Shown here in pieces: positions 25,319 to 28,426 of a stretch of DNA of 64,000 nucleotides (position 1 is the first letter of the stretch; every line of letters begins with the position of its first letter). Both the position numbers and the translations under genes were made by a program. Location: positions 1 through 64,000 of the forward strand of contig JAPUDO010000023.1 in assembly GCA_027493055.1 (NCBI GenBank), written 5' to 3'. This DNA comes from Niabella sp. (GTDB taxonomy: Bacteria > Bacteroidota > Bacteroidia > Chitinophagales > Chitinophagaceae). The notes under the pieces were generated by a model. That model was not told the origin of the DNA. It ran no database searches and saw nothing but the letters and a program-made list of their open reading frames with translations.

Positions 25319-26104
25319 ATGCAAGAAAATCCAAAAAACTGTTTCGTAATTATGCCAATTTCAGACCAAGATGGTTATGAAAAAGGACACTTTAATAGAG
25401 TATATGAATATTTGATAAAACCTGCTTGTGAAAAGTCGGGATTTGAACCGGTCAGAGCTGATGAAGAAGTAAAGACAAATTATATTGTTGTTGACATAAT
25501 AAAAAAAATTCTAGATTCTGATTTAGTCATTTGTGATTTAAGTGCTAAGAATCCTAATGTATTATACGAGCTTGGTCTAAGACAAGCTTTTAACAAGAAG
25601 GTGGTACTAATAAAAGATAAAATTACTGACAGAATCTTTGACATTCAAGGTCTGAGAACACTCGATTATGACCACAATTTAAGAATTGATGAAGTTAATA
25701 AGAACATACAACAAATATCAAAAACACTAATTGAAACATTCCAATCCAATGAAGATGAAGTAAACTCATTAATTCAACTATTATCAATTAAACCAGCAGA
25801 CTTGCCTTCGCAAATAAGTTTATCTCAAGAATCGAGTTTAATTCTTGAAGCACTAAATGACCTTTCCGTAAGACTAAGAAAAATTGAAGGAAAAGGAAAA
25901 GAAAACAATTATATCAGAAATAAAAATCTTAAAGTTGCTTTGAATAATGCTGAGTATGAAATTGGAGAAGAAATTTATAATAAAGAAGGTCTACTAGGTA
26001 AAATTATAGACATTCATAGTGATGGCATTTTCTTAAAAAAAGAGGAGAATATTTATAAAGTGCCCTACGATGATAAAAGATTAGCTGAAGTTTATCCGTT
26101 TTAA
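25319..26104 (+). CDS. Nucleoside deoxyribosyltransferase/TIR-like Rossmann protein, possible immune effector
   Basis: A 261-residue cytoplasmic protein. Residues 8-105 form a Rossmann-like domain: CFVIMPISDQDGY, then FNRVYEYLIKPACEKSGFEPVRADE, SDLVICDLSAKNPNVLYELGLRQAF and KKVVLIKD. The DLSxKNPNVxYELGxR block is shared by TIR-like and nucleoside 2-deoxyribosyltransferase-like domains that act as NAD or nucleotide-degrading effectors in several bacterial defence systems; the Glu of YELG is a catalytic candidate. The middle (110-200) is helical, and the last 60 residues look like a small beta domain (EIGEEIYNKEGLLGKIIDIHSDGIFLKKE) resembling an SH3-like barrel that could sense a ligand. No companion nucleotidyltransferase or reverse transcriptase is next to it. 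Defence role is inference. Confidence 0.6.
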   Translation: MQENPKNCFVIMPISDQDGYEKGHFNRVYEYLIKPACEKSGFEPVRADEEVKTNYIVVDIIKKILDSDLVICDLSAKNPNVLYELGLRQAFNKKVVLIKDKITDRIFDIQGLRTLDYDHNLRIDEVNKNIQQISKTLIETFQSNEDEVNSLIQLLSIKPADLPSQISLSQESSLILEALNDLSVRLRKIEGKGKENNYIRNKNLKVALNNAEYEIGEEIYNKEGLLGKIIDIHSDGIFLKKEENIYKVPYDDKRLAEVYPF

Positions 26105-26224: not shown

Positions 26225-26455
26225 CTATCTCTTAATCTCCCTAAAAAAATCTTCAAGCGTCAAGTCTCTTGCGGTACAAATTTTTTCTAATGTATATAGT
26301 GTGATTTTATAGGGAGCAGTTTTCCAGTTTTTTATTCTTCTCACAGTCTTTTCATCAATATCATGATTGGTTGCAAATGAACGCATAGATTCCTCACTTG
26401 GGCCAATCCATTCCCTTGTAATAAAGCTACATATGACATCGTACAAATCCTGCAT
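26225..26455 (-). CDS. Small helix-turn-helix regulator
   Basis: A 76-residue protein almost entirely consisting of an HTH fold: MQDLYDVICSFITREW, then SMRSFATNHDIDEKTVRRI (helices 2-3, with the turn at HDID), and KITLYTLEKICTARDLTLEDFF (helices 4-5). This pattern is common among short Bacteroidota XRE-like regulators. It is divergent from the 26755 gene. A perfect palindrome lies between its promoter boxes, so it probably represses itself and perhaps the divergent transcript (inference). Confidence 0.75.
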   Translation of the reverse strand: MQDLYDVICSFITREWIGPSEESMRSFATNHDIDEKTVRRIKNWKTAPYKITLYTLEKICTARDLTLEDFFREIKR

Positions 26456-26478
26456 TTAACAAATAAAGAGTTTGTGGA

Positions 26479-26507
26479 AAAAAATAAAGCGGACACCTGT
26501 CCGCAAA
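26479..26507 (-). promoter_or_regulatory. HTH promoter with palindromic operator
   Basis: On the minus strand a -33 TTTG (26504-26507) and a -7 TATTTTTT (26479-26486) flank a perfect palindrome GCGGACA-CC-TGTCCGC (26489-26504). The palindrome fills the 17-bp spacer, the classical place for a repressor site, about 35 bp before the HTH start codon. Confidence 0.6.
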
Positions 26508-26514
26508 TAACAAA

Positions 26515-26546
26515 ATTGTTATATATTTGCCCTGATATTATTTTTG
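26515..26546 (+). promoter_or_regulatory. Divergent plus-strand promoter
   Basis: A -33-like ATTG (26515-26518) and a perfect -7 box TATTTTTG (26539-26546) with a 20-bp spacer. A second -7 match, TATATTTG, is at 26522-26529. Transcription would begin near 26552 and run through the structured RNA at 26588-26698 into the 26755 gene. Confidence 0.45.
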
Positions 26547-26587
26547 CGATTACTTCATAAAATCATTTGAAGCATTCGCTTTCAATC

Positions 26588-26698
26588 TCGAACTGAAACG
26601 TCGGAACTTTCAAGTACACGGGATGATAAGCAGAATAGCTCACGACCTAGGCGTGGGCTCTCTTATCCGTGTACAGGCCTCCGACGGCCTCAGTTCGG
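26588..26698 (+). ncRNA. Highly structured leader or small RNA, about 110 nt
   Basis: Four nested helices fold the region into one long arm. P1: 26589-26596 with 26690-26697 (8 bp). P2: 26599-26604 with 26681-26686 (6 bp). P3: 26614-26621 with 26667-26674 (8 bp), a 4-nt bulge GATG, then 26626-26630 with 26662-26666 (5 bp). P4: 26637-26644 with 26652-26659 (8 bp, one G-U) and a 7-nt loop ACCTAGG. About 35 pairs in 110 nt is far more than chance. It lies between a plus-strand promoter and the 26755 start, so it is a 5' leader element or a separate RNA; a T6 run follows at 26717-26722. It does not match riboswitch or ribozyme cores I know. Confidence 0.55.
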
Positions 26699-26754
26699 TA
26701 AGTTGAGCATCACGCCTTTTTTGTGCGCGGTGTTCATTTAAAAAACTTTTTGTT

Positions 26755-27399
26755 ATGAACAACGCCGTTGCCACACCTGTACAAAGCGCCTGCCACAAGC
26801 CAGGCCACACCAAAGACCCCTTTGAAACCCATTGCTGGCGGAATGAAAGCCTTACAAATCCTTACCAGGTATTTGCCGCCATTTTTGCCGAAGCCCATGT
26901 GCACGATTTCCGAAAGCTGGTTAAAAAGCTCGTCAGCAGCGCCAGCGGAGCAGGAGTATATAAAGGCGAAGCAACAGGAGATGTGCTGCTGTATATGAAG
27001 CTCATTCGCTCACTTATAAAAGCGGCACATGCCTTAAAGCGTGAAAAGAATAGTGCTATTGTCATTACCAGGGACGATCTGTTCAATAAAAAATACTATT
27101 GCAGCCATTATGTTAGCGCCGATGCGTGGAAGGAGTTTCCGCGCCACCTGTCTGAAAAAGAATATGGTAACCCATACCTGGTGTTTCAAAAGTTTTTCCG
27201 CTACCAGTCGCTAACCAATTGGCTGCATTGCTGGGAGCAGGTTGTGGATGGCGCATTTTGCGGGGATGGCAGTTTTGCACCCGTTGCCCCGTTCAAAGTG
27301 CACAGCCATTTGGCAAAGCTGGTGGAAGCCGCGCATTTGATTGATGTAAGGGAGGATAGCATACACAAATTCACATATCGCCATGAAGCGGTAGAATAA
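26755..27399 (+). CDS. Unrecognised 214-residue protein with internal duplication
   Basis: No signal peptide and no family recognised. The protein contains two similar halves: residues 35-92 (NPYQVFAAIFAE ... LIKAAHAL) and 139-196 (NPYLVFQKFFRY ... LVEAAHLI). Each starts with NPYxVF, continues with an amphipathic helix region rich in Trp, Phe and basic residues, has a Val/Ala-containing middle, and ends with a helix L(I/V)xAAH; spacing between NPY and AAH differs by only two residues. Between the halves is a segment with paired charged residues (KREKNSAIVITRDDLFNKKYY). The gene is GC-richer than the block before it. It is preceded by the structured RNA and followed by the structured tail repeat. 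A diverged 3' end of a second copy lies at 28253-28321, so the gene once belonged to a tandem family. Confidence 0.65.
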   Translation: MNNAVATPVQSACHKPGHTKDPFETHCWRNESLTNPYQVFAAIFAEAHVHDFRKLVKKLVSSASGAGVYKGEATGDVLLYMKLIRSLIKAAHALKREKNSAIVITRDDLFNKKYYCSHYVSADAWKEFPRHLSEKEYGNPYLVFQKFFRYQSLTNWLHCWEQVVDGAFCGDGSFAPVAPFKVHSHLAKLVEAAHLIDVREDSIHKFTYRHEAVE

Positions 27400-27401
27400 G
27401 A

Positions 27402-27499
27402 GTACGAGGCGAGGACGCCTCGTACAGCGAATAACAACAATGTACTACTTGTTCCGCAAAGCGGAAGGCCAGCCACGCACATTGCCAGGCTTTAGGCCT
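27402..27499 (+). repeat. Structured tail repeat, copy A
   Basis: Directly after the stop codon of the 214-residue gene come a perfect 10-bp hairpin GTACGAGGCG-AGGA-CGCCTCGTAC (27402-27425), a linker with AACAACAATG, a hairpin TTCCGC-AAA-GCGGAA (27452-27466) and a longer-range stem AGGCC/GGCCT (27466-27470 with 27495-27499). The same order recurs in copy C and in part in copy B. Confidence 0.7.
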
Positions 27500-28252: not shown

Positions 28253-28321
28253 CAGCATTTGATCGATGTGAGGGAGGAAAGCATACAGGCATTCACATAT
28301 CGCCATGAGGCGATAACATAG
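28253..28321 (+). pseudogene. 3' remnant of a second copy of the 214-residue gene
   Basis: The frame reads QHLIDVREESIQAFTYRHEAIT and a stop, against AHLIDVREDSIHKFTYRHEAVE at the end of the intact gene. Several of the base differences are synonymous (ATT/ATC, GTA/GTG, GAA/GAG), so the second copy evolved as a coding gene before losing its 5' part. Only the last 22 codons remain. Confidence 0.7.
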
Positions 28322-28323
28322 AA

Positions 28324-28426
28324 GTACGAGGCGAGGACGCCTCGTACAGCGCGAAATAACAACAATGCACAGCTTGTCCCGCAAAAGCGGGAGGTCAGCC
28401 ACTCACATTGCTACGCTACAGACCTC
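28324..28426 (+). repeat. Structured tail repeat, copy C
   Basis: Same order as copy A behind the remnant: the 10-bp hairpin GTACGAGGCG-AGGA-CGCCTCGTAC (28324-28347), AACAACAATG, hairpin TCCCGC-AAAA-GCGGGA (28377-28392) and stem GAGGTC/GACCTC (28391-28396 with 28421-28426). The stems differ from copies A and B by paired changes. The 370-bp gap 28148-28517 holds copies B and C, the remnant and the recA terminator. Confidence 0.7.

Follow-up and report, generated by a model that had tools for sequence, protein, structure and literature searches.

A Bacteroidota RNA family absent from Rfam 15, found mostly 5' of genes and proposed to act as a transcription-attenuating leader

The locus and the distribution of the RNA

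The window, that is, the whole stretch of DNA analysed here, comprises 64,000 nucleotides of a contig of Niabella sp. (Bacteroidota; Chitinophagaceae). It contains a small gene for an XRE/Cro-type HTH protein, a palindrome, two -7-type promoter boxes, a structured RNA and a gene that we refer to as the payload gene (Table 1).

Table 1. Features of the RNA locus, with positions in the window
Feature	Position	Strand	Remarks
Small XRE/Cro-type HTH gene, 76 aa	26225-26455	-	divergent; Pfam HTH_26, E 9.9e-5
Palindrome GCGGACACCTGTCCGC	26489-26504		perfect except centre; candidate operator
-7 box TATATTTG	26522-26529	+	box of the initial annotation
-7-box-like TATTTTTG	26539-26546	+	adjoins the RNA
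Whole element	~26546-26722	+	from comparative evidence
P1 hairpin AAGC-AUUC-GCUU	26570-26581	+	94.7% paired, no double-sided change
PK1, 5' strand	26585-26589	+	partner 26620-26624
Closing stem A, 5' strand	26591-26596	+	last two bases common to H1 stem
Hairpin H1	26595-26611	+	kissing loop CGTCGG at 26599-26604
Central arm	26614-26674	+	helices C, D and apical E
Helix C	26614-26619/26669-26674	+	double-sided change in 5/6 pairs
PK1, 3' strand	26620-26624	+	partner 26585-26589; over the bulge of the initial annotation
Helix D	26626-26630/26662-26666	+	
Apical helix E	26638-26644/26652-26658	+	99.3% of cells paired
Predicted terminator helix, 5' strand	26650-26660	+	GGCGTG 26650-26655, CTC 26658-26660; common to helix E
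Hairpin H2	26676-26689	+	kissing loop CCGACG at 26681-26686
Closing stem A, 3' strand	26690-26695	+	partner 26591-26596
Predicted terminator helix, 3' strand	26705-26716	+	GAG 26705-26707, CACGCC 26711-26716
U-tract (T6)	26717-26722	+	
Payload gene, 214 aa	26755-27399	+	no family at curated cut-off

The initial annotation had described positions 26588-26698 as an unrecognised, highly structured RNA that did not match the riboswitch and ribozyme cores familiar to it, and the observation is confirmed. The predicted folding energy of this stretch is -50.6 kcal/mol, compared to a mean of -29.3 for shuffled sequences (z -5.98, with 0/200 shuffles as low), and the wider stretch 26570-26725 gave a z of -5.33. 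A cmscan search of the window returned 0 matches to Rfam 15 at or above the gathering thresholds, while nine further loci gave three Rfam 15 matches, none of them at the RNA. Scans at permissive E-values (26450-26800 of the window and loci L176, L078, and L195) yielded nothing better than E 0.2, and no tRNA was found in the window.

A search of the Niabella genome itself found six DNA-similar places, including the window copy, with 75 to 100% identity. Among these copies the arm sequences diverge and pairing is kept, with 13 of 49 predicted pairs changed on both sides. A covariance model built from the six copies (R1) gave hits in 140 of the 394 genomes examined from the family, spread over 54 of 101 genera; at most seven candidates were scored per genome, so that copy numbers are lower bounds. 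Using a second model built from 67 copies (R2), we found at least eight copies in the Niabella genome. Among sampled genomes, R2 had matches in 66 of 298 at the level of the order, in 87 of 395 at that of the class, and in 34 of 296 at that of the phylum, where six of the matched genomes lie outside the class; these samples overlap, and the Niabella genome is in each. The specificity of the matches was judged from 67 matches in 864 kb, all at the centres of the loci, and from calibrated E-values, which are themselves rough.

An exact pattern search of genome contigs returned 10 stretches, in carriers that include Terrimonas pollutisoli, Sediminibacterium magnilacihabitans, Lacibacter cauensis, and a Ferruginibacter MAG. 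A match of an exact pattern to a viral contig (L201) lay within overlapping open frames and was taken as chance. DNA relatives of one copy (L174) are present on five plasmid records from Bacteroides, Phocaeicola, and Parabacteroides, and R2 matched all three of those to which it was applied (E 1.6e-6 to 2.4e-5). The RNA units are single; in the two loci with two units (L127 and L165), these lie kilobases apart. As judged from these genomes, the RNA is a family absent from Rfam 15 that recurs across the phylum Bacteroidota, mostly 5' of genes. Large structured RNA families that span a phylum and combine kissing loops with pseudoknots are, in our judgement, uncommon finds.

Comparative structure and a conserved alternative pairing

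We aligned 67 copies, the window copy included, with MAFFT; the regions came from 60 loci of other genomes of the family and 5 of the Niabella genome. The resulting model has 42 pairs, in P1, stem A, the arm C-D-E, hairpin H2, the kissing loop, and PK1. Over the alignment, 95.0% of the cells are paired in this model, compared to 81.5% after shuffling and 36.9 to 51.0% when the partner is slid. Twenty-six pairs show a double-sided change, with 387 such cells against 112 in shuffles, and the covariation score is 0.404, with 0.157 in shuffles. Of 500 shuffles, which ignore relatedness, not one reached any of the five measures. As an internal control, all 16,738 column pairs of the alignment were ranked by an APC-corrected G-test: ranks 1 to 9 are all pairs of the model, as are 17 of the top 45, and much of the remainder of these 45 consists of cross-terms among the kissing-loop columns. 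Homologues with compensatory changes, the evidence that the initial annotation had named as support, are found in large numbers, with strong covariation in the 67 copies.

The comparative evidence redraws the RNA. Where the initial annotation had seen one continuous arm with a 4-nt bulge, it gives a closing stem, two hairpins joined by their loops, and a central arm; the bases of the bulge pair in PK1 with a sequence that begins just upstream of 26588, and the bounds first given were too small. Once the copies were aligned, the single-arm model was dropped, since PK1 and the kissing loop account better for the bulge and the GTCGG/CCGAC stretch. All six pairs of stem A, and all six of the kissing loop taken alone, show double-sided changes; PK1 alone is 95.8% paired, with double-sided changes in three of its five pairs. 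For both tertiary contacts, the cells paired, the double-sided cells, and the covariation score each exceed all 500 shuffles, whereas the number of changed pairs was reached by 33 (kissing loop) and 159 (PK1) of the 500 and the number of pair types by 116 and 28, respectively. Most pairs of helices E and D and of the H1 stem are nearly invariant, and the helices tolerate G-U pairs.

A second set consisted of 43 further copies (40 plus 3 plasmid copies), aligned to R2, which itself holds no pairs for the kissing loop, PK1, or the terminator helix. These copies come mostly from other families of the order, from the class, or from plasmid hosts, with one (L189) from the Niabella genome. In this set, the kissing loop is paired in 89.1% of the cells compared to 65.3% after shuffling (maximum 70.0) and PK1 in 88.1% compared to 77.3% (maximum 83.2), while the H1 stem (86.5% versus 85.7%) gains no added support. 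Taken together, these data support a junction with kissing loops and a pseudoknot as the predicted structure.

The loop of P1 may in addition pair with GAAU (26633-26636, between D and E), a contact that we call PK2. It scores 11.73 compared to 10.11 for swapped partners (0/500, with 41 distinct combinations), and its columns 40/108 rank 33 of 16,738. An inverted repeat at the 5' end, P0 (GCGA 26546-26549/TCGC 26576-26579 and CTTCA/TGAAG), was not included in the model, since it is overlapped by the -7 box and competes with P1, and since CTTCA/TGAAG is often broken.

GGCGTG in the arm had also been noted to be complementary to CACGCC just before a T6 run, which would permit an alternative fold; the three elements are present exactly as described, and the pairing proves to be a conserved, terminator-like one. 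In the 67 copies, this helix is 97.2% paired compared to 95.2% after shuffling, and five of its nine pairs show a double-sided change compared to 2.0 in shuffles (0/500); slid by +2, it is still 74.8% paired. The second set gives 97.9% compared to 89.5% (maximum 93.8), although the CTC/GAG part, at 74.4% versus 65.4%, receives little support there. Columns 146/201 extend the helix (CG 13, UA 6, AU 6; rank 14 of 16,738), but 35 of the 67 copies have a U-U mismatch there, which is the commonest state. TTTT follows within 9 nt in 59 of the 67 copies, compared to 5.7% of control windows, and is absent from 8.

In nested folding, with pseudoknots uncounted, the compact form of the window copy is lower than the terminator form (-71.0 versus -64.3 kcal/mol). 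With pseudoknots likewise uncounted, the mean gap over the 67 copies is 5.5, and the terminator form is the lower one in 15. The minimum-energy fold of 26570-26725, on the other hand, contains the terminator pairing, so that thermodynamics leaves the winning state undecided. The conservation of the alternative pairing directly before T6 suggests an attenuator.

Promoter box, divergent regulator, and payload genes

The -7 box reported upstream of the RNA is there, and it is accompanied by a second box that adjoins the element. TANNTT[TC]G lies exactly at -6 from the start of the model in 48 of the 67 copies, while any such box was found in only 8 of 398 control windows. Among 40 copies of the second set, the box is at the fixed position in 8 and between -60 and -14 in 32, compared to 15 of 231 control windows. 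We then determined the orientation of the first downstream gene encoding 120 aa or more, from open reading frames called by a custom script and for those loci that have such a gene. It lies on the strand of the RNA in 95 of 104 loci (58 of 66 in the 67-copy set and 37 of 38 in the second set) and on the other strand in 9, of which at least L069 resembles an artefact of ORF calling. The median distance to this gene is 219 nt in the 67-copy set, many copies of which are more than 200 nt away, and 45 nt in the second set.

On the upstream side, the HTH regulator named by the initial annotation is present, with the correction that it is divergent, on the minus strand. The profile used to look for divergent XRE genes was itself trained on genes of this kind. 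It placed one within 700 nt upstream of 52 of the 67 copies and of 9 of 40 in the second set (L189 included), and found none on the other strands or in the other regions that were examined. The nearest upstream minus-strand genes are diverse, with 57 of them 7 to 64% identical to that of the window and a few being non-XRE; all nearest upstream genes divide into 35 minus and 32 plus (67-copy set) and 15 minus and 24 plus (second set). The XRE gene is a frequent partner that stays outside the definition of the RNA. Upstream of the RNA, 40 of the 67 copies have a palindrome with an arm of at least 7, compared to 8 of 67 control stretches, and its sequence varies between copies. Farther upstream in the window, the protein encoded at 25319-26104 has weak matches to nucleoside deoxyribosyltransferase and to a PADLOC TIR effector, and another copy of the Niabella genome (L003) has an AbiJ_NTD4/PDC-S32 gene upstream of the RNA.

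The payload protein of the window gave only sub-threshold matches in Pfam, NCBIfam, and PADLOC. By eye, it appears helical with an internal repeat; an AlphaFold2 model computed with no alignment had a mean pLDDT of 39 and was discarded. Close copies lie behind two further RNA copies of the Niabella genome. At the cut of our script, its domain is found downstream of 15 of the 67 copies and 2 of 40 in the second set, a count that misses L127_15199 solely because its frame opens earlier. This protein family, which has no Pfam model above cut-off, accordingly occurs at 17 of 107 loci by the same cut, sometimes in neighbouring genes. A 20-codon stretch 0.9 kb downstream (28256-28315), 80% identical to payload residues 194-213, suggests a duplicate of the payload gene that has been lost. 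The palindrome-like repeat gtacgaggcgaggacgcctcgtac, REP-like by eye, occurs twice near the payload gene (27402-27425 and 28324-28347).

The initial annotation had expected homologues of the RNA to stand before homologues of the 26755 gene, but the payloads proved very diverse. The Pfam input comprised 38 large and 95 other downstream proteins, with some left out. A TonB plug was found in 30 of the 38 large proteins, and the 95 others included 11 Sigma70_r2, 10 FecR, and 11 SusD_RagB matches. Thirty-eight downstream proteins of the second set, one of them partial, gave 4 TonB plug, 3 N6_N4_Mtase, and 3 RibD_C matches. The payloads, among them SusC/D, ECF sigma factors, DNA methyltransferases, RibD_C proteins, and others, have no common pathway. 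Long payload operons occur, such as ECF-FecR-SusC-SusD, and several other payloads are short genes.

Several further features were seen among the downstream genes. Short unannotated ORFs of about 25 to 66 aa with a KPKNPV-like tail before the stop lie within 450 nt downstream at 19 of 107 loci (including L076, L077, L082, L092, L094, and L130), and the same script found none in its control windows. Many of these loci run on into a SusC-kind gene of about 1,000 aa, and the short ORF is possibly a peptide signal, a substrate, or a leader peptide. In the Bacteroides and Parabacteroides plasmids, the gene that follows the RNA carries the annotation dihydrofolate reductase family (L195 and L196) or deaminase (L197), with a type IA or III topoisomerase alongside; RteC is near the RNA in L195 and L196 and an integrase in L197. 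L174 has a RibD_C gene in the place of the payload together with an rteR match, and L188 is similar by eye. The payload of L005 (1688-2227), for which Pfam, NCBIfam, and PADLOC listed no family, has a C terminus that looked toxin-like by eye.

Proposed mode of action and comparison with known systems

A promoter box, a knotted domain, a strand common to a helix of that domain and to the terminator pairing, and the orientation of the genes are best fitted by an attenuator acting in cis. We consider it reasonably likely that the element belongs to a new family of leader RNAs, portable between genes, that attenuate transcription in cis; judging from its sequence, it probably acts as an on/off switch for the reading of the gene. 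Transcription would start at a dedicated promoter, with the -7 box adjoining the RNA, and the nascent RNA would fold into a compact form made of stem A, the kissing hairpins, the central arm with helix E, PK1, and possibly PK2. In this compact domain, helix E would employ the strand GGCGUGGGCUC. If the domain were lost, GGCGUGGGCUC would pair with GAG..CACGCC beside the U-tract and RNA polymerase would stop before the payload gene, so that the compact form would be the ON state. Payload expression would then be set by a signal that makes the compact domain more or less stable. In the Chitinophagaceae-type copies, a divergent XRE protein, presumably binding its own palindromic operator, probably adds control at the promoter.

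Several observations speak against this attenuator. The terminator helix pairs only slightly above shuffles and survives a slide by +2; its extra pair is mismatched in more than half of the 67 copies, and some copies are devoid of TTTT. In the second set, neither the H1 stem nor CTC/GAG stands out, and the payloads have no pathway in common. The next long gene is on the opposite strand at 9 of the 104 loci, and in the 67-copy set it is often distant. These last points, together with the dedicated -7 box and U-tract and the several copies per genome, would also be expected of a small RNA that stands alone between a promoter and a terminator and acts in trans, the downstream gene being read by occasional read-through or from a separate promoter. 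The initial annotation had left the choice between a 5' regulatory element and a small RNA; our data support that proposal in general, with the cis-acting element the more probable of the two. We regard the small RNA as unlikely, given the strong same-strand bias (95/104), the closeness of the second set to start codons, and a terminator strand shared with a helix of the internal domain, an arrangement typical of attenuators.

The diversity of the payloads and the length of operons such as ECF-FecR-SusC-SusD are what a processive antitermination element would predict, namely one that binds or modifies RNA polymerase and so lets it pass the terminators of long operons. Several payloads are short genes, though, and the direct alternative pairing would already give control at the adjacent terminator, which makes this explanation quite improbable. 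Least probable of all is a hairpin that functions as DNA, for instance a recombination or transposition end, instead of as RNA: dispersal in multiple copies, some on plasmid-like or integrative elements, would suit it, but the box is fixed on one strand, a U-tract is present, the genes are biased in orientation, G-U pairs are tolerated, and the families listed for the scanned downstream proteins, at most 25 per scan, include no transposase or recombinase. On the same evidence, an attC- or REP-like DNA hairpin was rejected.

Returning to the cis-acting attenuator, the features by which riboswitches are recognised are found in part. At the level of the sequence, the RNA has the position of a 5' leader on the strand of the gene and a platform of mutually exclusive pairings, and its fold is conserved, complex, and aptamer-like; a common payload pathway is missing, which is unusual for a metabolite riboswitch. 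Because the payloads lack such a pathway, a general signal would be more likely than a pathway metabolite. We tentatively entertain the idea, with rather more doubt than conviction, that the family is a phylum-wide new class of RNA sensor, in which one conserved knotted aptamer responding to a general cellular signal has been moved, as a portable switch module, in front of unrelated accessory genes. Candidates for this signal would be a metabolite, a nucleotide, or the state of RNA polymerase. The targets would include nutrient receptors, sigma factors, DNA methyltransferases, and genes of conjugative-type elements, and each Chitinophagaceae-type copy would be paired with an XRE regulator and a differing candidate operator. 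If true, Bacteroidota, with elements of gut Bacteroides among them, would control surface receptors, sigma factors, and DNA methyltransferases from one shared point, and the RNA would pose a concrete orphan-signal problem.

Flavo-1, RteR, and DonS are likewise Bacteroidota RNAs. In PMC7366714, DonS is described as antisense to susC and located at susC genes, and RteR as a 90-nt trans-encoded RNA on a conjugative transposon. The rteR match in locus L174 is on the opposite strand, 567 nt past the RNA, and Rfam scans found no Flavo-1 match in the window, in 26450-26800, or in the nine further loci. PMC9723704 reports that Flavobacterium psychrophilum has 64 structured 5' regions, some with no Rfam hits, and PMC8040213 reports 3,161 candidates from human microbiomes. 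A description of the RNA was not found in the literature searched, including passages of these three papers; it may be an unnamed entry among the 64 or the 3,161.

Like ToxI of type III toxin-antitoxin systems, our RNA is pseudoknotted and precedes a gene. Type III systems are defined by tandem RNA repeats together with ToxN; here the RNA unit is single and not repeated in tandem, and no ToxN-type family is among those listed for the proteins scanned, so that such a system was rejected. The EAR and put RNAs let RNA polymerase read through the terminators of long operons. Our RNA is similarly a large structured leader before unrelated and often long operons, but unlike them it has no Rfam match and directly overlaps an adjacent predicted terminator. 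Purine and cobalamin riboswitches terminate transcription and contain kissing loops. Known riboswitches were rejected in view of the Rfam 15 scans, and our RNA differs from these two in its secondary structure and in lacking a single payload pathway. It nevertheless shares with them a loop-loop contact in a junction, the position in the 5' leader, a conserved aptamer-like core, and a predicted terminator that competes with an internal helix.
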